Origin: Micromonospora tarapacensis
GTDB lineage: Bacteria; Actinomycetota; Actinomycetes; Mycobacteriales; Micromonosporaceae
Assembly (NCBI RefSeq): GCF_019697375.1
Contig: NZ_JAHCDI010000003.1
Coordinates: forward strand, 62,001-126,000
Length of the DNA: 64,000 bases
Direction: 5' to 3'
Shown: positions 1,762 through 60,786 of the stretch, in pieces
Numbering within the stretch: the first letter of the stretch is position 1
Layout of the letters: the number at the start of each line of letters is the position of its first letter
Program-made: the position numbers and the translations under genes
Notes under the pieces: generated by a model
What the model was told of the DNA's origin: nothing
The model's database searches: none
The model's input: the letters and a program-made list of their open reading frames with translations, nothing else

Positions 1762-2763
1762 CTAGGACTGTGGAATTAGCCTGGCCCCGCGACCGCCTCC
1801 GAGCAGACGACGGATGCTGTCGACGGAAGCTGCGCAGCGAAAGCCGGTGTCGTCATCCAACATATCGGCCGACGCATCGTTGAAGATGGAGGGCGTGCAG
1901 CGAAGAAACGGGCTTGTGAAGGCGCTTCCTTTTAGCTCGTATCTGCCAGTAGTTGATCCCGTTGCACACCACTCCCAGACGTTGCCACATAGGTCATACA
2001 CCCCGTATTGGCTTACGCCGCTGGCGTAAGTGCTAACCGGGGTAGTACTTCGGATTCCGCTCTCCCGACAATTGCACTTGGCCGGCGTTCGCTGGCTCCC
2101 CCACGGGTAGATATCACCTCGGGTGCCCCGGGCGGCTTTTTCCCACTGGTGGGAGGTGGGAAGCTCCTTCCCTGCCCAACGACAATAGGAATCGGCGTCG
2201 CGCCAGGTCACGAAGACTACCGGGTGACTGAGCTGATTGGCGGGAGGGCTGCCGTCAAGCCAATGCTGAGGAGCGTTAGCCTGAGTTGCGGCTACGTATC
2301 GGGCATAGTCAGCATTGGTGGTGGGGTAGATGTCCATGTAGAAAGCTGGGAGGTAGATGGGCTCGTTCCGGTCCCCCGCGAAGAACACTCCCGCCTCGAC
2401 TAACGTCATCAGCTTGCCGTCGATCGGATGCCTGATGTGGTTCTCGTCTCCGGCCGGTGTCGACACTTCGTCGTTCACCTCGGATTGTTTGACGGCAGGC
2501 CCAGGGCCGGCAGGCCGATCGGCTGTGAGGTCGAGCTCCCGGGCAAACCGCTCTTGAACTTCCTGGCTGGAAGCAGCGAGTGATGTGTCTAAAGCAGACT
2601 GGTTGACTGGTCTGGGAACGAGGTTTTCGCCGCCCGCCTCCCACTTCGACACCATGCGCTCGCTGATGCCGAGATGTCCGGCGAACTCACGGAGGCTCAT
2701 GCGCTTCGCTTTTCGCAGGACGCGGACCTCGCGTCCAGACCACCGTTGGACCGTGATCGCCAT
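1762..2763 (-). CDS. XRE helix-turn-helix fused to an FGE-sulfatase (SUMF1-like) domain
   Basis: The protein has 333 residues. Residues 10-45 form an XRE-type HTH (MSLREFAGHLGISERMVSKWE). A Pro- and Ser-containing linker follows to about 105, then an FGE-sulfatase/C-lectin-fold domain to about 320, with the family signatures PVVFVTWRDADSYCRWAG, PTSHQWEKAARG, YDLCGNVWEWC and a final DDTGFRCA. True formylglycine-generating enzymes carry a Cys pair (C-x4-C) for copper just before the end; here only one Cys (LRCTPSIFND) is visible, so the domain may bind rather than oxidise. It follows the aminotransferase gene by 18 bp, on the same strand, with a GGAG upstream of the ATG. It is cargo on the AICE. 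I infer a sensor-regulator that may control its own operon; no substrate can be named. Confidence 0.8.
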   Translation of the reverse strand: MAITVQRWSGREVRVLRKAKRMSLREFAGHLGISERMVSKWEAGGENLVPRPVNQSALDTSLAASSQEVQERFARELDLTADRPAGPGPAVKQSEVNDEVSTPAGDENHIRHPIDGKLMTLVEAGVFFAGDRNEPIYLPAFYMDIYPTTNADYARYVAATQANAPQHWLDGSPPANQLSHPVVFVTWRDADSYCRWAGKELPTSHQWEKAARGTRGDIYPWGSQRTPAKCNCRESGIRSTTPVSTYASGVSQYGVYDLCGNVWEWCATGSTTGRYELKGSAFTSPFLRCTPSIFNDASADMLDDDTGFRCAASVDSIRRLLGGGRGARLIPQS

Positions 2764-2781
2764 AGCTCGCGGCTCCGTACC

Positions 2782-3564
2782 TCATAGGGGCTCGGCTGGG
2801 ATCGCCTCGTACTCCTTGCATAGATCATCTAGGATCGCGTGCTCGGTTGGCAACTCGACGTCATCGATCTGGCTGATCGGCCGCATGCCGAACGTGACGT
2901 TGGTAGCGAACGCTGCTTCCATCCCGCGAAGGTCTGCAAGGTTGACCGGGGCAAGGATGGTGTGGTCGTGGACCTGCTGGAGTAGGCGCATCGTTACGCC
3001 TGGCAGAACCTCCGCGTTGGGCCACACCACGTCAGCACCATCGAAGAAGCCGAGATTCCATGTGGGACCTTCGGAAAGGTAGCCATCGGCGTCGCTAAAG
3101 ACGGCGTCGTCGAAGCCGGTGAGCTGGGCGGCACGACGGTGCCACAGCGCTCCAAACAGCCCGATGTGCTTTGCCTCGGGAAGGTCACGGGTGTAGGTCC
3201 TGGACTGGACACGCAGCGGAGGCAACGGCAGCGTGCTGGCTTCCCGCAGGGTCACCAGTACGCCGGGATAGCTGGGGCTGCGGCTGGGACTGGCCATGTC
3301 AAGACCTGGATCGAACACAGTGACCCGTGCAGCGAATAAGCCGTCACGATCGTCGAGGGCCTGGTGCACATACTGGCGTATGAGGCCACGGTCCAGCTCG
3401 ACGGCAAACAGCTTCCGGCAGTCTCGTACCAACCGCTCTAGGTGGTGTGAAAGCCCTCGGACGCACCCGTTCTCGACTCGCATGGACGTGAAGTGCCCGT
3501 AGTTGATCAGGGCAAGGGACTGAAGTTCCTTGGGCGTGATCGGGGTGCCGTTCAGCTCTGCCAT
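2782..3564 (-). CDS. Class IV aminotransferase (PLP-dependent)
   Basis: The protein has 260 residues from the ATG at 3564; a GTG at 3588 would add eight residues and neither start has a clear ribosome-binding site. The fold-type IV family (branched-chain aminotransferase, D-amino acid transaminase, aminodeoxychorismate lyase) is shown by the PLP lysine region (LPEAKHIGLFG), GFDDAVFSDADGYLSEG, a TWNLGFF strand and LPGVT near 205. The substrate loop does not match one subfamily strongly enough to choose between transaminase and lyase. It is the first gene of a two-gene operon with the XRE/FGE protein. It is not a normal AICE backbone gene. I take it as the metabolic or effector half of a cargo pair. 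Three GTTCAGC direct repeats lie upstream. Confidence 0.82.
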   Translation of the reverse strand: MAELNGTPITPKELQSLALINYGHFTSMRVENGCVRGLSHHLERLVRDCRKLFAVELDRGLIRQYVHQALDDRDGLFAARVTVFDPGLDMASPSRSPSYPGVLVTLREASTLPLPPLRVQSRTYTRDLPEAKHIGLFGALWHRRAAQLTGFDDAVFSDADGYLSEGPTWNLGFFDGADVVWPNAEVLPGVTMRLLQQVHDHTILAPVNLADLRGMEAAFATNVTFGMRPISQIDDVELPTEHAILDDLCKEYEAIPAEPL

Positions 3565-3605
3565 AGGAGCAAGTCTCGCAGGCCGCACGGGCTGAATCGG
3601 CCAAG

Positions 3606-3659
3606 GTTCAGCGGGAGTTCAGCGCTGGGGCAGCGCGGAGAAGTTCAGTGCTGAGGCAG
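3606..3659 (-). promoter_or_regulatory. Direct repeats upstream of the cargo operon
   Basis: GTTCAGC/T occurs at 3606, 3617 and 3643. The longer copies, 3617-3633 and 3643-3659, agree at 15 of 17 positions and are 26 bp apart. They lie 40-95 bases upstream of the aminotransferase start, where an operator would be. The XRE-domain protein of the same operon is the natural candidate to bind them; this is inference. Confidence 0.45.
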
Positions 3660-3720
3660 TTACGGGGCGTGGCTGACGCGAGAGAAGTCCGCGATTCTCG
3701 ATGCATGGACAGAGAAGCGA

Positions 3721-4902: not shown

Positions 4903-4926
4903 CACACGCCCTGACCGGGGCGTGTG
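4903..4926 (+). terminator. Hairpin between membrane gene and ssb
   Basis: CACACGCCC (4903-4911) pairs with GGGCGTGTG (4918-4926) over 9 bp with a 6-base loop, 10 bases after the stop at 4893. It may be a partial terminator or attenuator, because the next gene runs in the same direction and has its own strong ribosome-binding site. Confidence 0.5.
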
Positions 4927-4978
4927 CGGTGACCGCCACGAGGGCGGCTCACCTCCAACAATCTCGAAGGAGATCGCA

Positions 4979-5422
4979 ATGGCAAACGACACGACCGTGA
5001 CGGTGGTCGGGAACCTGACCGCCGACCCGGAGCTGCGGTTCACCCCGGCCGGGGTGGCGCTGGTGAAGTTCACCGTGGCGTCCACGCCTCGGGTGTTCGA
5101 CCGCAGCTCGGGCGAGTACCGCGACGGTGACCCGCTGTTCCTGACCTGCACCGCGTGGCGGGACCTGGCCGAGCACATCGCCGAGTCCCTCGCCAAGGGC
5201 ACCCGTGTGGTGGTGGCCGGGCGGCTGCGGCTGTCGCGGTGGGAGAACGAGCAGGGCGAGAAGCGCTCCGCGTACGGCCTGGACGTGGACGAGGTCGGCC
5301 CGTCGCTGCGGTTCGCCACCGCGACGGTGAAGAAGATGGCCCGCACCCGTAACGGGGACGGGTTCACTCCGGAGACGCCGGCGGATGACCCGTGGTCGAC
5401 CGCCGCGCCGGCGGTGGGCTGA
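4979..5422 (+). CDS. ssb: Single-stranded DNA-binding protein
   Basis: The ATG at 4979 follows AAGGAG (4967-4972). The protein has 147 residues with an OB fold over about 1-110, showing VTVVGNLTADPELRFTP, the FTVAS strand, DPLFLTCTAWRDLAEH and the VVVAGRLRLSRWE strand. The C-terminus lacks the acidic DDIPF tip of housekeeping SSB, ending in a short Pro/Ala tail. The shorter form suggests a specialised SSB for the element, protecting single-stranded DNA during rolling-circle-like replication. Its stop overlaps the ATG of the translocase gene by one base, so the two are translationally coupled. Confidence 0.92.
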   Translation: MANDTTVTVVGNLTADPELRFTPAGVALVKFTVASTPRVFDRSSGEYRDGDPLFLTCTAWRDLAEHIAESLAKGTRVVVAGRLRLSRWENEQGEKRSAYGLDVDEVGPSLRFATATVKKMARTRNGDGFTPETPADDPWSTAAPAVG

Positions 5423-6264
5423 TGTCGACGCTGACCGTTTCCGCCGTACCGGGTGGCATGCCCGCTGACCCGTCCGTGTCGATCTTCGACCCGGTGCATG
5501 TCGGGGTGGACGAGTTCGGCCACCCGGTGCGGGTCCCACTGATCTACCGCAACTTGTTGATCGGTGGGGAACCGGGCGGCGGCAAGTCGACCCTGCTGAA
5601 CCTGATCGTGGCTCACGCCGCCCTGTCGCTGGACTGCCGGCTGTGCCTGCTCGACGGCAAGCAGGTCGAGTTGGGTCAGTGGAAGAGCTGCGCTGACGTG
5701 TTCGTCGGCCCGGACATCACGCATGCCCTGGCCACGCTGCGACGGATGCAGATCGTGATGGACAACCGGTACGCCTACCTGGAAGTGGCCGGCCGCCGGA
5801 AGACCCAACGCGATGACGTGTTCAGCCCGATCCTGGTCGCGATTGATGAGATCGCCTATTTCTCGGCCACCGTCGGGGACAAGAAGACCCGGGAGGACTT
5901 CGCGGGTCTGCTGCGGGACCTGGTGGCTCGGGGCCGGGCGGTCGGCATCATCGTCGTCGCGGCGACGCAACGCCCCTCGTCCGACATCATCCCCACCTCG
6001 CTGCGGGACCTGTTCGCGTGGCGGTGTGCCTTCCGGTGCACCACCAACGTGTCCTCCGACATCGTGCTGGGGCACGGGTGGGCCGATCGTGGCTGGTCGT
6101 CCAACACGGTCAGTCCGACCAATCCCGGTGTGGGCCTGCTCATCGCCGAGGGCGGCATCCCGCAACTGATCAAAGCCGCGTACCTGGATGACGCGGCCTG
6201 CGCCCGGATCGCCATCCACGCCGCCCGCATGCGGGCTGACCGCAGCAAGGAGCGTGCGGCATGA
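5422..6264 (+). CDS. FtsK/SpoIIIE-type DNA translocase, conjugation protein
   Basis: The ATG at 5422 overlaps the ssb stop. The protein has 280 residues. Walker A is GEPGGGKST (49-57) and Walker B is ILVAIDE (137-143), followed by VVAATQRPSSDIIP, the usual FtsK sensor motif. The protein is short and has no obvious membrane segment, unlike chromosomal FtsK, but agrees with the compact translocases of AICEs. In pSAM2-type elements one such ATPase is the only transfer protein needed and moves double-stranded DNA between hyphae. No separate winged-helix gamma domain is evident, so DNA recognition may come from another protein. ATGA overlap with the next gene. Confidence 0.88.
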   Translation: MSTLTVSAVPGGMPADPSVSIFDPVHVGVDEFGHPVRVPLIYRNLLIGGEPGGGKSTLLNLIVAHAALSLDCRLCLLDGKQVELGQWKSCADVFVGPDITHALATLRRMQIVMDNRYAYLEVAGRRKTQRDDVFSPILVAIDEIAYFSATVGDKKTREDFAGLLRDLVARGRAVGIIVVAATQRPSSDIIPTSLRDLFAWRCAFRCTTNVSSDIVLGHGWADRGWSSNTVSPTNPGVGLLIAEGGIPQLIKAAYLDDAACARIAIHAARMRADRSKERAA

Positions 6265-6680: not shown

Positions 6681-7097
6681 ATGCACGCTACCCAAAACGA
6701 GGTCGCCGAGCAGGTGACCACCCCGGCCCGCACGCTGCGGGACGCCGCCCTGTACCTGTCCCGCCACGGCTGGACGCAGGGCGCCTACTACGACGCCACG
6801 TCGGGGTCGTTCACGCCCCCGGCCTGTCTGGTCGGTGCGGTCGGCATGGTCTGCTACGGCGGACCGGTCGACGCCCCGGCGCAGATGTTCGACGCCCCCG
6901 AGTTCGCCGACTTCGAGTCCGCGTTGGTTCACCTTGACCGGCACTTGGACGCGGTAGTCAGCGACGACGAGTACAAGTCCGGGTTCGACACTGTCTACGA
7001 CTTCAACGACGCCAAGGACCGCACCTCTGGCGAGGTGATCGCGGTCCTGCGGGCGGCAGCGAACGAGTGGGACCGCACCAACGGCGGTGCGGCATGA
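6681..7097 (+). CDS. DUF6197 family protein
   Basis: The ATG at 6681 follows AAGGAG. The protein has 138 residues and matches the general form of DUF6197 proteins: a helical start (LRDAALYLSRHGWTQGAYYD), then CLVGAV and an acidic C-terminal half ending in AANEWDR. These are common on Streptomyces and Micromonospora elements and have no known biochemical role. The stop overlaps the ATG of the next gene (ATGA). Confidence 0.7.
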   Translation: MHATQNEVAEQVTTPARTLRDAALYLSRHGWTQGAYYDATSGSFTPPACLVGAVGMVCYGGPVDAPAQMFDAPEFADFESALVHLDRHLDAVVSDDEYKSGFDTVYDFNDAKDRTSGEVIAVLRAAANEWDRTNGGAA

Positions 7098-7774: not shown

Positions 7775-8835
7775 ACACCAACCCGAATCCACCCACTGTC
7801 CGGCCGGCGGCCGGTGAGCCCCGGCTGGCGTCGATCGCCTCGTGGGCGGTGCTGGTCGCGTCGTTCGGCCTGTCCGCCGCTACCTGGATCGCGCTGGCGG
7901 AACTCGCCGGCTTCACCGACCGCATCACGGTCCCCGGCACCTCGGTCCGCCTCGCCTTGGCCTGGCTGATGCCCATCGCGGTCGACGGCTACGTGGTCGT
8001 CGCCCTGGTGCTGTGGATGGCTCCCGTGCCCGCACGGGTGGCCGCGTTCGCCAAGAAGAACACCTACGGTGCGGCCGGCATCGGCATCGCAGCCCAGTCG
8101 GCCTACCACCTGCTAGACACCATGTCCACAAACGGCGAACTCTGGCGCGTGGTCCTGGCCGCGATCGTCGGCGCACTGCCGCCGGCCGTCGCTGGCTTGG
8201 CCGTGCACATGCGCGCCCTGATCCGCCGGGAAAGCGGCCGAACCCTGACCGCCGCCACCGGCACCGCGCCAGCGTCCCCGGCACCCGCCGAGACGCCAAC
8301 CCTGACCGTGAACGTTCCCGCCGTCCCGGCACCGACGCCCGGCCGGCCCGAGCTGCCCATCGTTCCTACCGCCGACCCGGCCGATCCGGCACCGCTGCCG
8401 GCCCGGCCTGAGATCCCGACCCCGGCCCAAGTGGTCACCCGGCTCGCCACGCCGCGAACGGCCTCCAACCCGGAGTCGTCGGCGTCCCGGCCCGATGCGA
8501 CTGCCCGCCCCGCCCGTCCCCGACCGAGCAAGCCCGAGCACACTCCGGCTCCGACGTTGGCACCGTCCACCACTGACATTCCTGTCACCGCGTCTGACGC
8601 TGCCCAACTTTCGCTGCCGACCGTGGCCCCGGACCTGCTCGCCCGAGCGACCCGCGTCGCGAAGCAGTACCGCACCGAGCACGGCACGCCGATCACCCCG
8701 GGCCAACTGGCCGTCCGCCTCAAGGTGACCTCCGACGAGGCCACGCAAGCCCTAGCGGTCATGGACCTCGACCCCAACACCAGCAACCGAACCGTCCAGC
8801 CCGCCAACGGCCGCCCCACGAAGGCGACCCGTTGA
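7771..8835 (+). CDS. DUF2637 membrane protein (SpdB-like spread protein)
   Basis: The GTG at 7771 overlaps the previous stop. The protein has 354 residues. The N-terminal 140 residues have four hydrophobic helices (about 18-42, 57-79, 88-105, 117-143) with LAWLMPIAVDGY, the signature of DUF2637. A long Ala/Pro-rich segment (150-285) leads to a C-terminal winged-helix-like part (QYRTEHGTPITPGQLAVRLK). DUF2637 proteins accompany replication genes in Streptomyces plasmids and AICEs. A membrane anchor with a DNA-binding end fits a link between element DNA and membrane; this is inference. The stop overlaps the TTG of repSA. Confidence 0.8.
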   Translation: MNTNPNPPTVRPAAGEPRLASIASWAVLVASFGLSAATWIALAELAGFTDRITVPGTSVRLALAWLMPIAVDGYVVVALVLWMAPVPARVAAFAKKNTYGAAGIGIAAQSAYHLLDTMSTNGELWRVVLAAIVGALPPAVAGLAVHMRALIRRESGRTLTAATGTAPASPAPAETPTLTVNVPAVPAPTPGRPELPIVPTADPADPAPLPARPEIPTPAQVVTRLATPRTASNPESSASRPDATARPARPRPSKPEHTPAPTLAPSTTDIPVTASDAAQLSLPTVAPDLLARATRVAKQYRTEHGTPITPGQLAVRLKVTSDEATQALAVMDLDPNTSNRTVQPANGRPTKATR

Positions 8836-10400
8836 CCGTCTCGACGCTGACCGTCGTACCCGAAGCACCTGCTTCGGGTACGGCCCCGTGCGCCGAGCCG
8901 ACCACGCCACCCTGGTACGCCACCTCCACCGACATCCGGCTCCAGGCCGCCGCCCGGCTCACCCAACCCGACCTCGCCGGCTGGCTGCGCCATGTCCGCC
9001 CGGCCGCCGGCTGCACCCGCCCGGTACGCCTCGTCGGCACCATCGCCACCATCGAGGCCACCACCGGCCGGCTTCTCGCGGAGCGGTCAACGGCGGACAT
9101 GCCCGACGGCGTCATCTACAAGCCGTGCGGCAACCGCCGCGCCGCCGTCTGCCCGACCTGCTCGAAGCTCTACCAACGTGACGCCTACCAGGTCGTGCGG
9201 GCCGGGCTGGTTGGCGGCAAGGGTGTGCCGGAGCAGGTCGCCCACCATCCGGCGGTGTTCCCCACCTTCACCGCCCCCAGCTTCGGCGAGGTGCACACCC
9301 GCTACGTCAAGCGGCACACCTGCAACCGCCGCACCTCCTGCGACTGCCGACCCGAACCCTGTCACCCCCGCCGGGAGTCGACCGTCTGCCCGCACGGTGT
9401 GCGGCTGGTCTGCTTCGCCCGCCACGAGGACACCGACGCCCGGTTGGGCGCGCCGCTGTGCCTGGACTGCTACGACCACGACGCGCAAGCCGTGTGGAAC
9501 GTCTCGGCCGGGGAACTGTGGCGGCGCACCACCATCGCCATCAACCGCTACATGCACCGCCTGGCCACCGCACGCGGCATCCCCAGCATCCCCGTGACCT
9601 CGCCGCGTACCGGCAAGACCCGGTGGGTGTCCCCGGTGCGGTTGTCGTTCGGCAAGGCCGCCGAGATGCAACGACGCGGCGTCGTGCACTTCCACGCCAT
9701 CATCCGCCTCGACGGCCGCGACGCCGACGACCCGGATGCCATCATCCCGGCCCCGCCGCAGCTCGACGCCGCCGACCTGGTCGCCGCCGTCGACCACGCC
9801 GCCGCCACCGTCGGCTTCACCACCCCCGACCACCCCAACCAGCCCGGCGGCTGGCCAATCACCTGGGGCACACAGGCGCTCACCAAAGTAATCACCGTGG
9901 CCGGCCGGGGCGAGGTGACCGACGCCCAAGTGGCCGCCTACCTCGCCAAGTACGCCACCAAGTCCACCGAGGTCACCGGCCACGCCTCCAACCGGCTCAC
10001 CGCCGACAGCATCGACATCTACGCCGACCCGGCCGGCAACCACACCGAACGCCTCATCGACGCCTGCTGGATGCTCGGCCTCCCCCGCGACTGGCGGCGG
10101 CTGCGCCGCTGGGCACACATGCTCGGCTTCGGCGGCCACTTCCTCACCAAGTCCCGCCGCTACTCGATCACCTTCGCCCTGCTCCGCAACCAACGCGTCA
10201 TCTTCCGCCGTGCCCAGAGCAGCGGACCGCAGGAAACCGCGGCCGGCACCGAGCCGACAACGCTCGTCGTCAACTTCCTGCAATTCGTGGGCGCCGGATG
10301 GCACACCACCGCAGACGCGCTGCTCGCCAACGCCTCCGCCGCAATGGCCCGAGAGCACCAGGACGCCGCCCGCGAGTACCTACAGACCCTCGTCGCCTGA
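8832..10400 (+). CDS. repSA: RepSA-like replication initiator
   Basis: The TTG at 8832 overlaps the previous stop and no better in-frame start is seen nearby. The protein has 522 residues. Cys-rich zinc-like segments occur at about 95-115 and 155-200. The HUH motif is VVHFHAII (His286 and His288), and the candidate catalytic tyrosines are in AAYLAKYATK (Tyr370, Tyr374). This is the usual architecture of the pSAM2 RepSA family, which nicks the origin and starts rolling-circle replication of the excised element. A perfect 12-bp hairpin lies in its first codons. xis and int follow after 57 and 22 bases. Confidence 0.9.
   Translation: MTVSTLTVVPEAPASGTAPCAEPTTPPWYATSTDIRLQAAARLTQPDLAGWLRHVRPAAGCTRPVRLVGTIATIEATTGRLLAERSTADMPDGVIYKPCGNRRAAVCPTCSKLYQRDAYQVVRAGLVGGKGVPEQVAHHPAVFPTFTAPSFGEVHTRYVKRHTCNRRTSCDCRPEPCHPRRESTVCPHGVRLVCFARHEDTDARLGAPLCLDCYDHDAQAVWNVSAGELWRRTTIAINRYMHRLATARGIPSIPVTSPRTGKTRWVSPVRLSFGKAAEMQRRGVVHFHAIIRLDGRDADDPDAIIPAPPQLDAADLVAAVDHAAATVGFTTPDHPNQPGGWPITWGTQALTKVITVAGRGEVTDAQVAAYLAKYATKSTEVTGHASNRLTADSIDIYADPAGNHTERLIDACWMLGLPRDWRRLRRWAHMLGFGGHFLTKSRRYSITFALLRNQRVIFRRAQSSGPQETAAGTEPTTLVVNFLQFVGAGWHTTADALLANASAAMAREHQDAAREYLQTLVA
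8855..8882 (+). promoter_or_regulatory. Perfect hairpin in the first codons of repSA
   Basis: Bases 8855-8866 pair exactly with 8871-8882 over 12 bp around the loop ACCT. It begins 23 bases after the TTG start. In RNA it would be very stable and could limit repSA translation or transcription; on DNA it could be part of a replication origin. Neither role is proven. Confidence 0.5.
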
Positions 10401-10413
10401 CGCTCGATTCAGC

Positions 10414-10430
10414 GTCAAGCCCACCTTGAC
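10414..10430. promoter_or_regulatory. Palindrome GTCAAG-N5-CTTGAC, copy 2
   Basis: It is the partner of the 7109-7125 palindrome. It lies 14 bases after the repSA stop and 27 bases before the xis GTG, where a repressor could control xis-int separately from repSA. The CTTGAC half could double as a -35 element, but I see no good -10. Confidence 0.55.
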
Positions 10431-10457
10431 ACCAATTCGGAGAGGAGCACGGAGACC

Positions 10458-10787
10458 GTGAGCGGCATCGGAGCGGCACGCGCGACCTTCTACCGCTCGG
10501 CGGAGGTCGCGGAGATGCTGCGCTGCTCTGAGTGGTGGGTGAAGGAGCAGGCCCGTAGACGCCGCATTCCGTACTGCTGGATCGGTGGCAGCTACCTGTT
10601 CACCGAGGAGCACATCAGGGAGATCCTCCGGCTGTTCGAGGTCAGGCCGAGCGGCGATTCCGCCCAGGCACCTGCACCCGGCCGGAGTCCCCTCCGGACC
10701 GTCGGCGCGGAGGACGTCCCGGTTGTCCAGCTCAGCGCGCGTGTACCGCGTCGCGCACGTCGCGCCGCGCCGGGCGCGGCGGCATAG
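10458..10787 (+). CDS. xis: Excisionase (Xis), MerR-like helix-turn-helix
   Basis: The GTG at 10458 follows a GGAG-rich leader (10439-10453). The protein has 109 residues. Residues 10-60 form the winged helix of the excisionase/MerR class (FYRSAEVAEMLRCSEWWVKE, then IPYCWIGGSYLFTEEHI). The C-terminus is Pro/Arg-rich. It helps the integrase to bend and bind att DNA for excision. It lies 22 bases before int, the conserved AICE order. Confidence 0.88.
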   Translation: MSGIGAARATFYRSAEVAEMLRCSEWWVKEQARRRRIPYCWIGGSYLFTEEHIREILRLFEVRPSGDSAQAPAPGRSPLRTVGAEDVPVVQLSARVPRRARRAAPGAAA

Positions 10788-10809
10788 GCACCGAAGGAGA
10801 CAACAGGTC

Positions 10810-12335
10810 ATGGGGTACGCGGAGAAGCGCGGCGACTACTGGCGTGGCCGGTTCAAGTTGGCGTCGGGGAAGTACGGCACGGTGGTCGACTCCACCGGGG
10901 TGACGGTCCGTTTTCGGACCAAGCGGGAGGCAGAGCAGGCCGCGAACGACGCCGAGGCGAGGGTTCGCGCAGGCGCGCGACGTGATCCTAGCGCCGGGCG
11001 GATGACGTTCGGGGACTACGTGAGCCGCTGGTATGCGGCGCAGGATCTCGCGGCGTCGACCATGCAGAACTACCGCAGGCACATTGAGGAACACTTGCTG
11101 CCGGTCTTCGAGCATCGGGCTGTCGCGGACATCGTGGCCTCTGATGTCGCCGCGTGGGAGAAGCAGGAGCGGGCGGCGGGCTACGCGGACTCCAGCGTGA
11201 AGACGTGGCGGGGGACTCTGCATCTCGTCCTGGCCGACGCGGTGGAGGAAGGGCTTCGAGACTCCAACCCGGCGGCGAGGCGGCGCGGAAGGGGCAAGCG
11301 TGCCGGGCGGTCCCGCAACCGTGGCCCGGAGAAGGTGGTGACCACGGGGTTGGGCGTCCTGCTCGTTGCCGAGCGGGCTGCCCTGCTGTCGGGTCGCGAT
11401 GACGAGTTCGTCGCCATCGTGCTCAAGGGTTTCACCGGTATGCGGTGGGGCGAGGTCGTCGGGCTGGAAGCCAGTTTTGTCCGCCCGGCTGCCGTGCGGG
11501 TCGAATGGCAGTTGTACGAGCTGGACACGGGGGTGCTACACCGTTGCCCGCCGAAGGACGACTCACGCCGCACGGTCGACGCCCCGCAGTGGTTGACAAA
11601 GCTCCTGGCGGATCACCTGGCCCGGACCTCGCCGAAGCCTTGCAGCTGCCATGACCGGACGTACGTGTTCCGGGGTCACGGGGTGGCCAACGGCGTGGCG
11701 GGACGAACGGGCGCGAAGCTGGTCGACGTGGCCCGTCGTGCCGGGGTGGCAACGGGGACGGTGTCGGCGGTGCTGAATCGCTCGGCGTCCGTGTCTGAGG
11801 CGACGCGGGTCAAGGTTGAACGAGCTGCGGCTGATCTCGGTTATGCGCGAGGGGGTTCGGTGGGGGAGCCGGCCGCGCACTGGCGTCGCAACGGCTTCTC
11901 GACGTGGCTGTTTCAGCCGGCCGTCACGGGCTGGTACCCAAGGAAGGCACCTCAGAATGCGCGGCCGGTGCCGGTGCTGGCCGAGCCGTGGCCCGGCGTG
12001 CCGGTGCGGGGCGGAACGCCCAGGCGCGAGCCGACGTCTGCTGGCTGCCGGTCGCCCAGGGCCTGACGCCGCACGGGCTGCGGCACACCCACAAGACGCT
12101 GATGGAGGAGTTGGGCACGCCGCCCAAGCTGATGGATGAGCGGATGGGGCACGAGGACGGGTCGGTGCAGGCCCGGTACTCCCACGTCACGGCGGAGATG
12201 CGCCGACGGCTGCTCGATGGCCTGACCCAGGTGTGGGCGTCGGCCCTGGAGGAGCGGTGGGCGATGGCTCCGGGCTCGCCGGTGGCGGCGCTGGATCGGC
12301 TGCTGGCGACCGGGCGGGGAGAGGCGCGAGAGTGA
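10810..12335 (+). CDS. int: Tyrosine integrase with an internal LacI-type HTH; frame broken by one missing base
   Basis: The ATG at 10810 starts an arm-binding N-domain (MGYAEKRGDYWRGRFK), a SAM-like core-binding domain (about 60-160) and the catalytic domain. Box I Arg is in FTGMRWGEV (Arg212), the beta-hairpin Lys in PPKDDSRRTV, then HGLRHTH (base 12072), GHEDG and the nucleophile Tyr in ARYSH (12177). Between hairpin and box II, residues 303-348 are a complete LacI-type HTH (VDVARRAGVATGTVSAVLN, SEATRVKVERA, LGYARG). The frame breaks at GGGG 12008-12011: one base is missing, and codons resume in the next frame as RNAQARADVCWLP. With one base restored the length is 508 residues. All catalytic residues of box II onwards lie after the break, so if it is real the protein is dead. 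I judge sequence error more likely. Confidence 0.85.
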
Positions 12336-12340
12336 ACGCA

Positions 12341-12370
12341 CAAGATCGTCTCCCAGATTTCTCCCAGGAC
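12341..12370 (+). repeat. Candidate integrase arm-type site, right copy
   Basis: This matches 703-732 at 26 of 30 positions. It lies just after the int stop and 68 bases before the right attachment core, with two TCTCCCAG motifs 11 bp apart. It is the expected position for an arm site in a tyrosine-recombinase attP. Confidence 0.55.
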
Positions 12371-12437
12371 AAGCCTGGAACGCAAATCAGGACCAGTCTC
12401 CCTCGGCGGAAAACTGGCCCTGACCTGGCGTTTCCTC

Positions 12438-12514
<77 letters not shown>

Positions 12515-12582
12515 AGGCGTGCCGACAAATAGTAGCCCACCCGTCCCGGGGCTCAAACTCGGTACCCTCGGGCGCGGGGTGG

Positions 12583-13476
12583 TCAGCTCGGGATCAGGGT
12601 GAGCAGGCTGGCCTCGGGCGCGCAGGCGAACCGGACTGGGGCGGTCGGATGGGTGCCGAGCCCGGCAGAGACGTGCAACCAGGAGTCCGAGCCGGGCCAG
12701 CGGTGCAGCCCCTTCGCCATCGACCGGGGCAGTCCGCAGTTGGTGACCAGCGCGCCGAACCCCGGTACGCAGACCTGGCCACCGTGGGTGTGGCCGGCCA
12801 GCAGCAGGCCGAAGCCGTCGGCGGCCATCTCGTCGAGCAGCGCCGGCTCGGGTGAGTGGGTGAGTGCGATGGAGAGGTCGGCCGCGGCCGAGATGGGCCC
12901 GGCGACCGAGGCGTAGTCGTCCCGTTCGACGTGCGGGTCGTCGACGCCGGCCATGTCGATCGCCCGGCCGCCGGCCTTCACCGTTGTCCGCCGGTTGTTG
13001 AGGTCGGCCCAGCCGGCCCCGGTGAGCACGTCCCGCAGCTCCTCGAAGGGCAGCTCGACCCCCTCGGTGTACTCCCGGTCGGGCAGGAAGTAGGTGAAGG
13101 GGTTCTTCCAGACGGGCCCGGTGTAGTCGTTGGAGCCGAAGACGAACGCGCCCGGGTAGTCGAGCAGGGGTTGCAGCGCCCGCAGCACGCCCGGCACCGC
13201 CCCGGGGTGCGCCATGTTGTCCCCGGTCACCACGACCAGATCGGGGTCGAGGGCGGCCAGTGAGGCGACCCACTGCTGCTTGCGTACCTGATTGGGGGTC
13301 ATGTGCAGGTCCGACAGGTGCAGGACGCGCAGTGGCTCGGTGCCGGCCGGCAGCACCGGCACATCGAAGCGGCGGAGGGTGAACATGTTGCGCTCGACGA
13401 GCGACGCGTACGCCAGGGCGGCGGCACCCGTCGCGGCGGTAATCGTCGCGAGCCGGAATAGTGTGCGCTTTCGCAT
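12583..13476 (-). CDS. Membrane-anchored metallophosphoesterase
   Basis: The ATG at 13476 gives 297 residues. An N-terminal helix (residues 6-26) is followed by a calcineurin-like phosphoesterase domain with its five motifs: [22 protein letters not shown] (for GNHD), ALTHSPEP and LAGHTHGGQ. It probably acts at the outer face of the membrane on phosphate esters; the substrate is unknown. It is divergent from the YqeY gene by 25 bases. In M. tuberculosis the ponA2 locus has a related gene at this place (Rv3683), which supports orthology. Confidence 0.88.
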
Positions 13477-55020: not shown

Positions 55021-56088
55021 ATGGCGCAGTTCGTGGACTGGGATCTGGCCACCGCGACCGCGGGGGCCCTGGGCAAGTCGGGCCCTCGGGTGACGTACCC
55101 GGAGGCCACCGAGGTGGTCGCCGAGCTGCGCCGGTTGACCGACGAGGCGGCCGGGCACGTCGCCGACTACACCGGGCTGACCTCGCAGGTGGTGCACCCG
55201 CCGGTGCGGGTGGTCGATCGGCGTGACTGGGCTGCGACCAACATCGCCGGCCTGCGCGAGGTGATCACACCGCTGGTCGGCCGGCTCGCACAGGACAAGC
55301 AGCCCGGTGTGTTCACCGAGGCCGTCGGGTCCCGGGTGACCGGCGTGCAGGCGGGCACCGTGCTTGCCTACCTGTCCGGCCGGGTGCTCGGGCAGTACGA
55401 GGTCTTCTCCGCCGACCCGGGGCAACTGCTGCTGGTCGCGCCGAACATCGTCGAGGTGGAACGCAAGCTGGCTGCCGATCCGCGTGACTTCCGGCTCTGG
55501 GTGTGCCTGCACGAGGTGACCCACCGGACGCAGTTCACCGCCGTGCCGTGGATGCGTGCGTACTTCCTCGGTGAGGTGCAGGCATTCGTGGACGCCGCGC
55601 AGGGCGGCGAGCATCTGCTGGAGCGGCTGCGCCGGGGGATGGGCACCCTCGCCGACGTGGTGCGGAACCCGCAGAGCCGAACCAGTGTGCTGGATCTCGT
55701 GCAGACGCCGGGACAGCGCGCCGTGCTGGACCGGCTGACCGCGCTGATGACCCTGCTGGAGGGCCACGCCGAGTTCGTGATGGACGGCGTCGGCCCCCGG
55801 GTGATCCCGAGCGTCGAGCGGATCCGGGCCAGCTTCAACCGTCGCCGCGAGGCGGGCAACCCGGTGGAGAAGGCGGTCCGGCGGCTGATCGGCATCGACG
55901 TCAAGATGCGGCAGTACGCGGAGGGCCGCAAGTTCGTGCACGCGGTGGTGGACCGGGTCGGGATGGCCGGCTTCAACCGCGTCTTCGAGTCACCGTTGAC
56001 CCTGCCCCGGCTCGCCGAGTTGAGCGAACCGGACGCCTGGGTGGCGCGGGTGCACGGGCCGGTCGGCCCGGTGCCGACCGCCGGCTGA
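55021..56088 (+). CDS. Zinc-dependent metalloprotease, DUF2342
   Basis: The protein has 355 residues. The HExxH-type site is LHEVTHRTQF (near 165) and a later Glu in LLEGHAEFVMDGVG completes the zinc site. The family is placed near tilS in actinobacteria and is annotated with coenzyme F420 biosynthesis without clear proof. Matches Rv3626c by position. tilS starts 13 bases after. Confidence 0.88.
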   Translation: MAQFVDWDLATATAGALGKSGPRVTYPEATEVVAELRRLTDEAAGHVADYTGLTSQVVHPPVRVVDRRDWAATNIAGLREVITPLVGRLAQDKQPGVFTEAVGSRVTGVQAGTVLAYLSGRVLGQYEVFSADPGQLLLVAPNIVEVERKLAADPRDFRLWVCLHEVTHRTQFTAVPWMRAYFLGEVQAFVDAAQGGEHLLERLRRGMGTLADVVRNPQSRTSVLDLVQTPGQRAVLDRLTALMTLLEGHAEFVMDGVGPRVIPSVERIRASFNRRREAGNPVEKAVRRLIGIDVKMRQYAEGRKFVHAVVDRVGMAGFNRVFESPLTLPRLAELSEPDAWVARVHGPVGPVPTAG

Positions 56089-56101
56089 GCACGCCGCGTC
56101 G

Positions 56102-57160
56102 ATGGCCCCGCTCGCCCCGCCGGTCGCCGCGATCCGGGTCGCGGTCCGCCATGCGCTGGCCGACCTGCCGGCGGACGGGCCGGTGCTGGTCGCCTGTTCC
56201 GGTGGTGCCGACTCGCTCGCCCTGGCCGCGGCGACCGCCTTCGTGGCACCCCGGGCCGGCCGCCGCGCCGGACTGGTGACCGTCGACCACGGATTGCAGG
56301 CCGGGTCGGCGACCCGGGCCGAGGCGGTGGCGCGGTGGGCGGAACAGGCGGGCCTGGCACCGGTGGAGGTGGTCCGGGTCGAGGTCGCCGGCCGGCCGGG
56401 CGGCCCGGAGGCGGCGGCCCGCGAGGCCCGCTACCAGGCGCTGGTCGAGGTCGCCGGGCGGCACCGCGCGGCGGCCCTGCTGACCGGGCACACCCGGGAC
56501 GACCAGGCCGAGACGGTGCTGCTCGCGCTGGCCCGGGGCGCCGGCCCACGAGGGCTGGCCGGGATGCCGCCACGCCGGGACCTGGGCGGTGTCGCCTTGG
56601 TGCGACCGCTGCTGGAAATCGCGCGGGCCGAGACCCGCGGCGCGTGCGCGGCGCTCGGGTTGACGCCGTGGGAGGACCCGCACAACAGTGATCCCGCGTA
56701 CACCCGGTCCCGGGTCCGCGCCGACGTGCTGCCCGTACTGGTCCGGACCCTCGGGGCGGGCGTGCTGGACAATCTCGCCCGCACCGCCCGGCTGCTGGCG
56801 GCGGACAACGCGGTCCTGGACGACCTCGCCGGGGAGGCACTGGCCGCGGCCCGGCATCCCGACGGCGGGCTGGCCGTCAGGGCGCTCGCCGACCTCCCCA
56901 CCGCCGTGCGGGGTCGGGTGCTGCGTGTCTGGGCCCACGAACTCGGCGCGCCGCCGGCCGCGCTGTCGCACCGGCACATGGCCGCGCTCGACACGCTCGT
57001 CACGGCGTGGCGGGGACAGGGTGCGGCGTACCTGCCGGGCGGGCTGCGGGTGCTCCGCCGGGACGGCCGCCTGCTGCCGGAGCGGCCCCCGCCGCCGGGG
57101 CCGGCCGGTGCGGGGCGCCCGCCCGGCCGGCGGGTGGGGGACGGTGTGCTCGGGGAATGA
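56102..57160 (+). CDS. tilS: tRNA(Ile)-lysidine synthase
   Basis: The protein has 352 residues. The PP-loop is ACSGGADSLALAA (about 36-48), with VDHGLQAGS and TGHTRDDQAET. It changes the wobble cytidine of tRNA-Ile(CAU) to lysidine. The C-terminal half is helical and ends in a Pro/Gly-rich tail. The gamma-glutamyltransferase gene starts within its last codons. Confidence 0.93.
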   Translation: MAPLAPPVAAIRVAVRHALADLPADGPVLVACSGGADSLALAAATAFVAPRAGRRAGLVTVDHGLQAGSATRAEAVARWAEQAGLAPVEVVRVEVAGRPGGPEAAAREARYQALVEVAGRHRAAALLTGHTRDDQAETVLLALARGAGPRGLAGMPPRRDLGGVALVRPLLEIARAETRGACAALGLTPWEDPHNSDPAYTRSRVRADVLPVLVRTLGAGVLDNLARTARLLAADNAVLDDLAGEALAAARHPDGGLAVRALADLPTAVRGRVLRVWAHELGAPPAALSHRHMAALDTLVTAWRGQGAAYLPGGLRVLRRDGRLLPERPPPPGPAGAGRPPGRRVGDGVLGE

Positions 57161-58790
57161 CCTACCCCGGCAGCCACTCTTCGCCCCGCGCGCGGCCGTG
57201 GCCACCAGCCAGCCGTTGGCCGCGGCAGCGGGCCTGGGCGTGCTGCGGCGCGGCGGAAACGCCGTCGACGCCGCGCTGGCCACCGCCGTCACCCTGACCG
57301 TCGTGCAGCCTCCGTCGAACGACATCGGTGGCGACCTGTTCGCCATCGTTTGGGACGGGGAGCGGCTGCACGGTCTGAACGCCTCCGGCCGGTCACCGGC
57401 CGGGTTGACCCGCGAACTGGTACTGGCCGCGACCGGCGGCCGGGGCGTCGCGCCCGTCGAGGCGCTGGGCGGCGCCCAGGCCACCGGCCCGGCGATGCCG
57501 GCCCGGGGCTGGCTGCCGGTGACCGTGCCGGGCGTGCCGGCGGGCTGGCGCGATCTGCACGACCGGTTCGGTTCGCTGCCCTTCGCCGAGCTGTTCGTCG
57601 ACGCCATCCGTTATGCCGAGCGCGGGCATCCCGTCTCCACCGCCACGGCGACGGCGTGGGCCCGGGCGGTCGCCGGCCACGCCGGGTCGACCGGTCCGGA
57701 GTGTGCGGACTTCGCCCGGGTCTTCGCGCCGGGCGGACGGGCACCCGGTGCGGGCGAGTGGTGGCGCAACCCGGACGCGGCGCGGACGCTGCGGCTGATC
57801 GCGCAGAGCCGGGCGGAGGAGTTCTACCGGGGGCGGATCGGCGCGGCCCTGGCCGACCACGCCGCCCGCACCGGCGGGCTGCTCACCGCCGACGACCTGG
57901 CGGCCCACACGAGCAGCTGGGTCGATCCGATCTCGGTGCGCTACCGGGGGCACGAGGTATGGGAACTGCCGCCGAACGGGCAGGGTCTGGCCGCCCTGCT
58001 CGCCCTGGGCATCCTCGACGGCTTCGACCCGGCCGAGGCGTCGCTCTGGCCGCACCGGCAGATCGAAGCGATCAAGCTCGGCTTCGCCGACGCACACGCC
58101 CACGTCGCGGATCCCGACCGGAGACCCGTACCGGCGGCGTTGCTCACGCCCGGGTACCTGGCCCGGCGCCGCGCGGCCATCACCGCGGGCGCCGCCGACC
58201 CGGTTGCCGGCGAGCCCGAGCGCGGCGGCACGGTCTACCTCTGCACGGCCGACGACGGCGGCATGATGGTCAGTCTGATCCAGTCCACCTACCTGGCCTT
58301 CGGCTCGCACGTGGTGCTGCCCGGGTACGGCTTCGCGGTGCAGAACCGTGGCCTCGGCTTCCGGCTCGACGCGGACCACCCGAACGTGGTCGGCCCGGCG
58401 AAGCGGCCGTATCACACCATCATCCCCGGCTTCCTGAGCCGGGACGGAGCGCCGGTCGGGCCGTTCGGGGTGATGGGCGGGCACATGCAGCCCCAGGGCC
58501 ACGTCCAGCTGATCTCCGCGACCGTGGACGCGGGGCTCGACCCGCAGGCGGCGCTGGACGCGCCCCGTTGGTATTGGCACACGGGCCGCTCGCTGCTCGT
58601 CGAGGAACACCTGGCCGCCGGGCCGGGCGGTGCGGCGCTCGTCGCCGACCTGCGGGCCCGGGGTCACCGGGTCACCGTCGCGCCGGAGCCCAGCGTCTTC
58701 GGGTACGGACAGGCGATCTGGCGCCGTGCCGAGGGCGGGTACGTCGTCGGCTCCGAGTCCCGGGTCGACGGGGGTGTGGGCGGCTTCTGA
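57144..58790 (+). CDS. Gamma-glutamyltransferase family protein, YwrD-like
   Basis: The GTG at 57144 overlaps tilS by 17 bases and is the only good start before the conserved GVLRRGGNAVDAALATA. The product has 548 residues. The self-cleavage Thr is in ERGGTVYLCTADDGG (about 358), then GYGFAVQNRGLGF and HTIIPGF. No signal peptide is visible, so it is probably cytoplasmic, unlike classical GGT. It breaks tilS-hpt order relative to M. tuberculosis and is an insertion in this lineage. Confidence 0.87.
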   Translation: MCSGNDLPRQPLFAPRAAVATSQPLAAAAGLGVLRRGGNAVDAALATAVTLTVVQPPSNDIGGDLFAIVWDGERLHGLNASGRSPAGLTRELVLAATGGRGVAPVEALGGAQATGPAMPARGWLPVTVPGVPAGWRDLHDRFGSLPFAELFVDAIRYAERGHPVSTATATAWARAVAGHAGSTGPECADFARVFAPGGRAPGAGEWWRNPDAARTLRLIAQSRAEEFYRGRIGAALADHAARTGGLLTADDLAAHTSSWVDPISVRYRGHEVWELPPNGQGLAALLALGILDGFDPAEASLWPHRQIEAIKLGFADAHAHVADPDRRPVPAALLTPGYLARRRAAITAGAADPVAGEPERGGTVYLCTADDGGMMVSLIQSTYLAFGSHVVLPGYGFAVQNRGLGFRLDADHPNVVGPAKRPYHTIIPGFLSRDGAPVGPFGVMGGHMQPQGHVQLISATVDAGLDPQAALDAPRWYWHTGRSLLVEEHLAAGPGGAALVADLRARGHRVTVAPEPSVFGYGQAIWRRAEGGYVVGSESRVDGGVGGF

Positions 58791-58860
58791 GGGTCGGCGC
58801 AACCGATCGCTTCCGACGCCGTCGCGCCGGGCGGCCGACCGGAGCGACGGCTGCGGCCGG

Positions 58861-59823
58861 TCAGCCGGTCGGGGCGCGGTCGCGAAACGTGGTGCGGTAC
58901 GCGTGCGGGGTGGCGCCGACCCGGCGGGTGAAGTGGTGTCGCAGGGCGGCGGCGTCGCCGAAGCCGGCCCGGTCGGCGACCGCCTCCACGGAGAGCCCGG
59001 TGTCCTCCAGCAGCCGCCGGGCCAGCAGGACCCGCTGGTTGGTCAACCAGTCGTGCGGCGTGGTGCCGGTCTCGGCGCGGAACCGGCGGGCGAAGGTACG
59101 CGGCGCCATCCCGGCTCGCGCCGCCAGCTCGTCGACCGTGATCTGCCGGTCCAGGCGCCCCATCAACCACTCCAGCACCGGCTCCAGGGTGGGTGCCTCC
59201 GGTGCCCTCGGGATCGGCGCCTCCACGTACTGCGACTGGCCGCCGTCGCGGTGCGGTGGCACCACCATCCGACGGGCCAGCTTGGTGGCGGTGGCCGAGC
59301 CGTGTTCCTGGCGTACCAGGTGCAGGCAGGCGTCGATGCCGGCGGCGGTGCCCGCGCTGGTGAGCAGCCTCCCGTCCTGCACATACAGCGAATTGCAGCG
59401 GACCTGGGCCTTCGGGTGCCGTCGCTGCAGTTCGTCGACGTGCCGCCAGTGGGTGGTGCACTCCCGGCCGTCGAGCAGCCCCGCCTCCCCCAGCAGGTAG
59501 GCGCCGGCACACACGCTGAACAGGTGGGCCCCCCGTTCGGCGGCCCGACGCAGCGCCTCGTGCACCTGCACCGAAGCGGTGGTGGCGGGGTCGTGCGCGG
59601 GGACGGCGACCAGATCCGCTTCGTCGAGCGGGCCAAGGTCGGCGCTGGGCACCAGGTGGAAGCCGGCGGAGGTGCGCACCGTGGCACCCTGCGGGCTGCA
59701 CACGTCGAAGCGGTAGCCGGGCAGGCCGTCGGCGGTGCGGTCGGTGCCGAACACCTCGGCGAGCACGCCGAGCTCGAACGGGGCCACCCCGTCCAGGGCG
59801 AGCACTGCGACCGAGCGGAGCAT
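58861..59823 (-). CDS. GlxA-type AraC regulator with DJ-1/PfpI domain
   Basis: The protein has 320 residues. A DJ-1/PfpI-like domain (residues 1-190) has VCAGAYLLGEAGLLDG at the nucleophile elbow (Cys kept), and an AraC HTH ends it (ELAARAGMAPRTFARRFRAE, VADRAGFGDAAALRHHF). Such GATase1-AraC regulators sense small metabolites. The two neighbours diverge or converge from it, so the target is not clear. Confidence 0.88.
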   Translation of the reverse strand: MLRSVAVLALDGVAPFELGVLAEVFGTDRTADGLPGYRFDVCSPQGATVRTSAGFHLVPSADLGPLDEADLVAVPAHDPATTASVQVHEALRRAAERGAHLFSVCAGAYLLGEAGLLDGRECTTHWRHVDELQRRHPKAQVRCNSLYVQDGRLLTSAGTAAGIDACLHLVRQEHGSATATKLARRMVVPPHRDGGQSQYVEAPIPRAPEAPTLEPVLEWLMGRLDRQITVDELAARAGMAPRTFARRFRAETGTTPHDWLTNQRVLLARRLLEDTGLSVEAVADRAGFGDAAALRHHFTRRVGATPHAYRTTFRDRAPTG

Positions 59824-59973
59824 GTGACGAGGGTAACCGCACGGGTGGCGGAAAATCGAGCATGGATGGCATCCCTGCCACTGTCCGGTGGGTGGCGCGA
59901 ACCGCAGACTGGCAGTTGTCCGGTGCGCACCGGCGGCGACAGACACCAGCAACGCGTGAAAGCGAGCGCCGCC

Positions 59974-60111
59974 ATGGGATTCCTGCTCTTCCTGCTCTTC
60001 TTCCTGCTCCTTGCCCTCCTGTCCGCCGTGGGACTGACCGCCGACAGCCGTGACTCCGCGGACTGGAAGCCGTCCGAGGGGGGTCGCCGGTGGCGATCTC
60101 ACCCCTGCTGA
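59974..60111 (+). CDS. Very small membrane protein
   Basis: The ATG at 59974 gives 45 residues; a GTG at 59956 is possible. One hydrophobic helix (GFLLFLLFFLLLALLSAVGL) is followed by a polar end with DSRDSADWKPSEGGRRWR. The ribosome-binding site is weak. Codon third positions are GC-rich, in favour of coding. Function unknown. Confidence 0.5.
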   Translation: MGFLLFLLFFLLLALLSAVGLTADSRDSADWKPSEGGRRWRSHPC

Positions 60112-60210
60112 GGTGATTGGTCCTGCCAGTCGGGAAAATCCGGGCCGGGGTCGCGCCGAAAGGGGCGGCCCCGCCGACGAAGAACCCGGGGCGTACGGCA
60201 GGCTATGGGC

Positions 60211-60786
60211 ATGGCTGACGGCTCCTGGTACGACGCCGACATCGACCACGTGATCATTTCCGAGGCGCAGATTCGCGAGAAGACCGCGGAACTGGCCAAG
60301 CAGGTCTCCGCGGACTACGCCCACGTCTCCGACGGGTTGCTGCTCGTCTGCGTGCTCAAGGGTGCGGTCATGTTCATGGCCGACTTCGCGCGGGCGCTCG
60401 GTCGTCAGGGTCCCCCCGCTGAGTTGGACTTCATGGCCATCTCGTCCTACGGGCAGGGCACCACCTCCTCCGGCGTGGTGCGCATCCTCAAGGACCTCGA
60501 CCGGGACATCGCCGGCCGGCACGTGGTGGTCGTGGAGGACATCGTCGACTCCGGGCTCACCCTCTCCTGGCTGCTGCGCTACCTGGAGTCGCGGTCGGCG
60601 GCCAGCGTCGAGGTGGTCGCGCTGTTCCGCAAGCCGGACGCGGTCAAGGTGCCGGTGCCGGTCAGGTACGTCGGCTTCGACATCCCGACCGAGTTCGTCG
60701 TCGGCTACGGTCTCGACTTCGGCGAGCGCTACCGCGAGTTGCCGTACGTCGGCGTGCTCAAGCCGGAGGTGTACGCCCGCTCCTGA
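60211..60786 (+). CDS. hpt: Hypoxanthine phosphoribosyltransferase
   Basis: The ATG at 60211 gives 191 residues; an ATG two codons earlier is equally possible. The PRPP motif is VVVVEDIVDSGLTL (near 108), with VCVLKGAVMFMADFARAL and the base-contact VGYGLDFGERYRELPYVG. It salvages hypoxanthine and guanine to IMP and GMP. It stands between tilS and ftsH as in many actinobacteria. Confidence 0.94.
   Translation: MADGSWYDADIDHVIISEAQIREKTAELAKQVSADYAHVSDGLLLVCVLKGAVMFMADFARALGRQGPPAELDFMAISSYGQGTTSSGVVRILKDLDRDIAGRHVVVVEDIVDSGLTLSWLLRYLESRSAASVEVVALFRKPDAVKVPVPVRYVGFDIPTEFVVGYGLDFGERYRELPYVGVLKPEVYARS

Follow-up and report, generated by a model that had tools for sequence, protein, structure and literature searches.

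A putative one-component XRE-FGE regulator, its predicted 11-bp direct-repeat operator and a mobile aminotransferase operon in actinobacteria

Within the 64,000-nt stretch of the Micromonospora tarapacensis genome analysed here (the window), an actinomycete integrative and conjugative element (AICE) carries a two-gene operon on its minus strand: a class IV aminotransferase of the PRK09266 subfamily (AT; positions 2782–3564, 260 aa) and, 18 bp downstream of it, a 333-aa protein (1762–2763) in which an XRE-type helix-turn-helix (HTH) is fused to an FGE-sulfatase fold (XRE-FGE). Both open reading frames (ORFs) lie where an earlier note on this DNA had placed them, and Pfam matches back the fusion that it described. 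We consider it probable that XRE-FGE is a dedicated one-component regulator of a mobile, self-contained and autoregulated aminotransferase operon, with a decommissioned FGE fold as its sensor. The transcript is predicted to be leaderless, and the XRE domain would bind tandem 11-bp repeats on the upstream side of its core promoter, starting about 60–83 nt before the ATG of AT. The protein would activate somewhat more probably than it would repress, and the FGE-fold domain would sense a small polar molecule, or the substrate or product of AT. The sole clear output would be a class IV aminotransferase with conserved pyridoxal phosphate (PLP) residues. In AICEs the pair is found at the non-integrase end, in opposite orientation to the transfer genes, and it is carried by plasmids too; the operon would be a conditional metabolic module that probably benefits the element or its host. 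Activation, sensing, enzyme activity and benefit are what we infer from sequence. Among the three options offered by the earlier note, the evidence favours a small-molecule sensor with its own metabolic enzyme.

The pairing itself is conserved, far more than chance would give. From a search for related loci, of which the best 80 of 575 confirmed stretches were used, 72 actinobacterial loci (L006–L077) were obtained, 66 of them with a near-full-length XRE-FGE. With adjacency defined as AT within 300 bp upstream of XRE-FGE on the same strand, AT lies directly upstream in 59 of these 66, at gaps of 5–111 bp. Among the remaining seven, the two genes overlap in L059, AT is about 3 kb off in L011, and five loci (L026, L037, L050, L058, L060) have no AT that we could find. 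An evenly spread sample of the class, 394 genomes in all, contained ten full-length XRE-FGE genes (five identical in sequence to loci of the first set); nine satisfied the same rule and in the tenth the genes overlap. Plasmid records with XRE-FGE had AT adjacent in 12 of 12 cases (three from S. clavuligerus, two from S. jietaisiensis). Adjacency across genomes had been named beforehand as the test of the pairing, and by the counts in loci and plasmid records the pair is clearly conserved. FGE and AT distances also correlate (r = 0.80 over 1711 locus pairs, without correction for species history). Literature searches, which left out most subscription journals, returned no description of an XRE-FGE/AT pair. 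Three of the AT-less genes (L037, L058 and L060, near 9995) come from Thermocrispum, Haloechinothrix and Actinophytocola, have similar surroundings and apparently form a chromosomal branch. L011 holds two XRE-FGE copies (8670–9617, minus strand; 9995–10915, plus strand), one of which immediately follows a small GntR-like ORF and lacks the repeats.

New here are tandem direct repeats with an 11-bp step that the promoters of paired operons share, with CYGAACTTNCN as the typical unit and CACTGAACTTTCACTGAACTT as the typical array; most begin at the 60–83 nt given above. We compiled 61 distinct paired promoters (L011, L059, L095 and L126 being non-adjacent by the rule and therefore excluded) and scored repeats of period 11 with at least 7/8 identity, taking expectations from Markov shuffles. 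Such repeats occur in 46 of the 61, with 3.05 expected. Periods of 10 (8 promoters; 2.75 expected) and 14 (7; 2.55 expected) exceeded expectation to a lesser degree, and the rest of the range from 6 to 24 stayed near it. Two-unit arrays were present in 50/61 promoters (8.4 expected) and three-unit arrays in 17/61 (0.4 expected). In the window, the predicted operator consists of a proximal cluster at 3604–3633 (minus strand; half-sites CTGCC, CTGAAC and CTGAAC in 11-bp steps) and a distal cluster at 3641–3660 (minus strand; CTGCC and CTGAAC half-sites 11 bp apart).

These repeats go with XRE-FGE more than with the enzyme. GAAN-N7-GAAN was found in 37 of 60 paired promoters versus none of 19 AT genes without XRE-FGE (i.e., those among the 30 best AT loci that lack an XRE-FGE match), only one of which passed the repeat threshold. 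Conversely, four of six XRE-FGE genes without an adjacent AT (L037, L050, L058, L060) carry the repeats no more than 200 nt from the start of the gene itself, the expectation per gene being 0.085 for the repeat and 0.018 for GAAN-N7-GAAN. In genome G088 (L101/L112), where an 81-aa HTH stub is what remains beside AT, the repeats are still present.

The half-site also changes together with the protein. Covariation was computed on 48 of the 61 promoters, after dropping 13 without two identical listed half-sites, and then on 47, since L068 lacks the HTH. Of the seven variable columns in the recognition helix (residues 33–42), five ranked among the first ten of 214 variable columns (p = 1.4e-6). 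Clustering at 80% left 36 representatives, for which four helix columns were among the first ten of 228 (p = 6e-5). The pattern is illustrated by residue 37: among representatives, Met occurs with AAC in 20/20 and Gln with AAG, AAT or ACT in 9/9. A helix of the form VNPR...RW pairs with TGACG in Nocardia (L041, L044) and with TGACT or TGACG in Streptomyces, apparently separately. From conservation, covariation and the near-uniqueness of the sites described below, we infer that the XRE domain binds the 11-bp repeats.

Genome-wide, few sites resemble the operator. Twenty genomes were selected for operons of the common operator type or close to it; in them, the common-type pattern with one mismatch allowed matched 22 sites, 21 of them beside XRE-FGE and one elsewhere (L149); 19 of the 20 genomes had a match, and the reversed control gave one. 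The Streptomyces-type pattern matched one site each in nine of 12 genomes and none in three, the nine operons being those that show that sequence. In the genome of the window itself, the exact pattern occurs once, and three more sites appear at two mismatches versus one control match. An operator so nearly dedicated to XRE-FGE genes suggests that the operon of XRE-FGE itself is most likely almost its sole target, with room for weaker sites. Control of the AICE transfer genes was considered and rejected, as the window holds the pattern once exactly (3604) and once more at three mismatches (30188, outside the AICE; 0.15 expected).

One could instead take the repeats for Pho boxes bound by PhoP. 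The Pho box repeats GTTCA every 11 bp (GTTCA-N6-GTTCA), PhoP has many targets, and the commonest half-site read in reverse is indeed GTTCA. Against this, the half-site changes together with the XRE recognition helix, each genome has one or two matching sites, nearly all at XRE-FGE promoters, where PhoP would have many, and AT-only genes lack the repeats. On these three grounds we rule the Pho box reading out as almost certainly wrong.

How the operator acts is suggested by its position. A promoter logo was built from 41 of the 61 promoters, the other 20 having an aligned start that is neither ATG nor GTG. A –10-like hexamer ends 5–10 nt before the start in 40 of the 41, and a Shine-Dalgarno-like motif is present in two. 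Searches shifted 15, 25, 35 and 95 nt upstream recovered a hexamer in one, two, three and one of the 41, respectively; a shift of 55 nt, into the operator, recovered 21. No conserved –35 box was found in this set. In the window, the hexamer is GAGACT (3572–3577, minus strand), 7 nt before the ATG at 3564, the start that the earlier note had chosen and that is conserved among relatives in preference to the GTG at 3588. With a –10 hexamer close to the start and Shine-Dalgarno motifs rare, the AT mRNA is probably leaderless; and an operator upstream of a good –10 without a –35 suggests activation. A repressor or homeostatic switch, in which XRE-FGE would block the operon from the same operator until its FGE domain binds a ligand, is possible, if less probable. 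Most small XRE autoregulators are repressors, a regulator encoded as the second gene suits negative feedback, and the operator position differs between clades; yet the repeats precede the predicted core promoter without covering it, and no –35 element is conserved.

The protein looks like a regulator built on a former enzyme fold. Its FGE-sulfatase domain (PF03781, 125.8 bits against a cut-off of 23.3; residues about 109–319) is joined by a low-confidence linker (82–105) to an HTH at about residues 8–62, which is borderline by Pfam (HTH_3, 23.0 bits with a cut-off of 23; HTH_31, 26.1 with a cut-off of 27) and recognizable as XRE-type from five predicted helices in a block with pLDDT of 84–98. 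The structure comparison covered residues 106–319, so that it barely bears on the HTH. The core FGE motifs WEKAARG, YPWG, GNVWEW and GFRC are kept and the fold is that of FGE-sulfatases; the two catalytic cysteines are missing, as the earlier note had suspected. In a profile alignment with the S. coelicolor FGE, the second of what we take to be its copper cysteines falls on F286 and the first on A281, five residues back; Cys is found at column 286 in one of 58 family members and at column 281 in none. The loop that would hold the Cys pair has another conserved set instead (K278, S284, R288, N295, D303, D305, T306). At E ≤ 1e-3, 2996 homologues of XRE-FGE were detected. The annotation 'SUMF1/EgtB/PvdO family nonheme iron enzyme', which many named relatives carry, is probably misleading, since the DNA-binding domain and the loss of the copper site speak for a regulator; the FGE-fold domain most likely acts as a sensor. 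Should this domain be catalytic in some other way, as its PvdO, EgtB and ToxD relatives are, the XRE part would tether or time it and AT and FGE would work in one biosynthetic pathway. This we regard as unlikely: the SenA, EgtB and PvdO equivalog cut-offs are missed by far (64 vs 420, 61 vs 360 and 24 vs 500 bits, respectively), and AT often stands alone.

AT, the first gene, matches Aminotran_4 (PF01063) with 118.3 bits (cut-off 28.5) and the NCBIfam subfamily NF006734/PRK09266 with 311.4 bits (cut-off 202), a family named merely 'hypothetical protein'; 1787 homologues were detected at E ≤ 1e-3. K132, R44, E165 and T191 are invariant in 45 of 45 sequences. We take K132 and E165 to be the PLP lysine and glutamate, and with these residues and the fold AT is a class IV aminotransferase, in agreement with the PLP enzyme proposed in the earlier note. 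Its score falls short of the equivalog cut-offs for aminodeoxychorismate (ADC) lyase (49 vs 273 bits) and branched-chain aminotransferase (28 vs 279 bits). An attempt to read the substrate from the fold was abandoned, with D-amino acid, branched-chain, (R)-amine and ADC-lyase structures tied within about 2 Z units. In a tree of 84 AT rows (61 paired, 23 unpaired), unpaired genes are nested among paired ones, with 15 changes of paired state, at least 11 of them forced by supported branches; depending on the root, some changes may be gains. Three unpaired rows show visible decay or displacement: XRE-FGE is in two pieces in L056, reduced to the HTH stub in L101 and moved in L011. This nesting, in part by decay, fits AT as a useful output and not as a toxin, and AT is most likely the operon's only clear output.

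The same tree speaks to the addiction option of the earlier note, in which AT or its product would be toxic and XRE-FGE protective, as in toxin-antitoxin modules. The two-gene layout on AICEs and plasmids and the predicted shared operator would suit it. A toxin, however, should not be kept alone, whereas AT without XRE-FGE turns up in many lineages, nested among paired genes, and XRE-FGE without any AT is rarer (5/66). In addition, the AT active-site residues are conserved, AT matches no PADLOC model and no toxin family was among the listed NCBIfam matches. We therefore set the option aside as very unlikely.

Defence was a further option. XRE-FGE has a sporadic distribution on mobile DNA: it is present in two of 160 genomes of its own genus (E ≤ 1e-60) and, at E ≤ 1e-80, in 18 of 199 from the genus that includes G199. 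We take that genus to be Streptomyces, as the AT promoter in G199 nearly matches one on an S. jietaisiensis plasmid. There, decaying copies were also seen, XRE-FGE being split by in-frame stops in L183 and AT reduced to a fragment in L185. An anti-phage or anti-element system, in which the enzyme would make or remove a metabolite under attack and XRE-FGE would sense that metabolite, would fit this distribution, and a fic-type toxin gene lies just downstream of the pair on plasmid L167. Exclusion genes are known from AICEs, an example being that for the Nudix protein Pif (as given in the accessible text of PMC3218068). Yet PADLOC returned nothing for AT and weak HTH-range matches alone for XRE-FGE (best E = 0.0011), no phage record contained XRE-FGE at E ≤ 1e-10, and no neighbour recurred across three plasmid regions, which makes a defence role quite unlikely.

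The AICE that carries the pair is 11.9 kb long and bounded by perfect 45-bp direct repeats (560–604 and 12439–12483) that correspond to the 3′ part of a tRNA-Pro(CGG) gene; the pair occupies its integrase-distal end. The host is related to Micromonospora: one of its penicillin-binding proteins is 89% identical, over 85% of the query, to a protein of Verrucosispora sp. WMMA2044. Across the 72 loci, AICE markers grown from the window and from neighbouring matches were searched within 10 kb. An FtsK gene was found in 14, and in all 14 it lies upstream of the pair on the opposite strand, at 5.2–8.3 kb in 13 of them; an integrase, RepSA or primase-polymerase follows beyond FtsK on the same side in nine. 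The pair of the window has the same orientation at a distance of 2.6 kb. The location inside an AICE is thus as the earlier note had it; its 'accessory cargo' proves too loose a term for a pair with one orientation to FtsK in 14 of 14 loci.

Several observations weigh against the regulator-operator explanation or narrow its reach. Fifteen of the 61 promoters fall below the repeat threshold. Of the six XRE-FGE genes without an adjacent AT, L011 and L026 lack repeats over the nearest 250 nt; the other four (L037, L050, L058, L060) may be a single lineage whose repeats are more distant, at about 130 nt from the start. A column that is not part of the HTH (233) ranked first for covariation before the sequences were collapsed and third afterwards, so shared ancestry contributes to the signal. 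The plasmid locus L167 breaks the residue-37 rule, having Met37 with AAA/AAG half-sites, and in a Streptomyces-type clade (L033, L036, L039, L049, L092, L173, L175, L176; helix VSDRIVSRW) the CGAAC half-sites are 10 bp apart, not 11. The distance from operator to ATG varies, which fits a fixed activator contact poorly and keeps repression open. The sensor role draws solely on the missing copper site and the conserved fold. Finally, at least two core AICE genes lie within 10 kb in only 11 of the 72 loci, incomplete loci included, and in two of these (L039, L049) the second core gene is primase-like and on the other side; loci without an AICE by the marker test are degraded, chromosomal, beyond 10 kb or beyond the markers. 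As to column 233 itself, it is R233 in the window protein, within the FGE domain; its covariation with operator type is no weaker than that of the recognition helix and could reflect ancestry or a contact between domains.

If XRE-FGE regulates as proposed, its readable operator would make the DNA specificity of an XRE family testable by swapping a few residues or bases, and, as the regulon appears to be one operon, the aminotransferase would be the main output to explain. The accessory repertoire known from AICEs would, moreover, gain a module with a PLP enzyme. More tentatively, and with considerable doubt, we propose that the FGE fold, otherwise known as an oxidase, a sulfoxide synthase and a variable binding protein, now serves as the ligand sensor in a family of transcription factors, that this family co-evolves with its tandem 11-bp operator and governs a single enzyme, and that the pair has its fixed place in AICEs because the element profits from the metabolite that the enzyme makes or removes; such a metabolite might, for example, signal the element's presence or exclude relatives.

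Among the other features of the AICE, the attachment (att) repeat at 560–604 marks its non-integrase end and is identical to the copy at 12439–12483, which lies inside an intact tRNA-Pro(CGG) gene (12438–12514, minus strand). On the plus strand follow genes for a single-strand binding protein (4922–5422, PF00436), an FtsK/SpoIIIE-type transfer protein (5392–6264, PF01580), the replication initiator RepSA (8832–10400, PF20199, E = 5.6e-146), an HTH_17 protein that is xis-like by position (10458–10787, PF12728) and a tyrosine integrase (10585–12335). The integrase occupies two overlapping frames, one (10585–12066; PF14659/PF22022) with the SAM-like part and a LacI-type HTH, the other (11904–12335; PF00589) with the catalytic C-terminus. 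With its integrase in two frames, this AICE copy may no longer move, and its present mobility is doubtful. Two small plus-strand ORFs belong to the element as well, one of 114 aa without a Pfam match between att and the pair (1086–1430) and one for a DUF6197 protein (6681–7097, PF19698).

A search for a recurrent third gene gave no candidate, the largest shared neighbour groups of L006–L077 looking, by eye and from sequence starts, like general actinobacterial genes. In AICE-type loci, the shared neighbours are the transfer genes and a GntR gene, the latter, in 10 loci, being co-oriented with the pair and 1.36–1.65 kb upstream of it (two confirmed as PF00392). To the left of the AICE, in tandem at the same tRNA-Pro att site, is a second element of about 7.4 kb (L137:11180–18590; contig C3 about 55180–62590), with att copies at L137:11180 and 18566 and an integrase ORF of its own (L137:17241–18485). 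At its distal end, a GntR-UTRA regulator gene (11885–12718) overlaps one for a cytidine/deoxycytidylate-type deaminase (11347–11991), again a regulator with a small-molecule enzyme.

Compared with known systems, XRE-FGE is closest among solved structures to SUMF2 (1y4j, E = 1.7e-35 by sequence), the non-catalytic paralogue of FGE. With FGE (SUMF1) and SUMF2 it has the fold and the core motifs in common; it differs in lacking both copper cysteines, in its fusion to an XRE HTH and in its pairing with AT. AT in turn differs from the known class IV enzymes (D-amino acid, branched-chain and (R)-amine transaminases, ADC lyase) in missing the listed equivalog cut-offs and in belonging to PRK09266. 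On AICEs, the nearest likeness is to the mdp-nud-xre module and to Pif of pSAM2, which likewise bring an HTH regulator together with a small-molecule enzyme; their enzymes are Nudix and HD hydrolases, unlike AT, and the text of PMC3218068, as far as it was accessible, contains neither 'formylglycine' nor 'sulfatase' and has 'aminotransferase' once, for a class I/II gene in a Frankia element. The DNA-binding part has relatives in the XRE-TPR regulators of actinobacteria, whose N-terminal HTH is of the same subfamily (matches at residues about 2–90) and whose C-terminal part is another one; we label them NsdA-like. They were considered as AT partners and dismissed, there being no adjacent class IV AT in the regions read and, for L142, a weaker AT relative some 8 kb away. 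Two of four XRE-TPR promoters inspected by eye (L142, L143) show CTGCC-type, CTGCCCTTGCGCYGCC-like 11-bp repeats, and direct-repeat operators may thus be common to the XRE subfamily, XRE-TPR regulators included.

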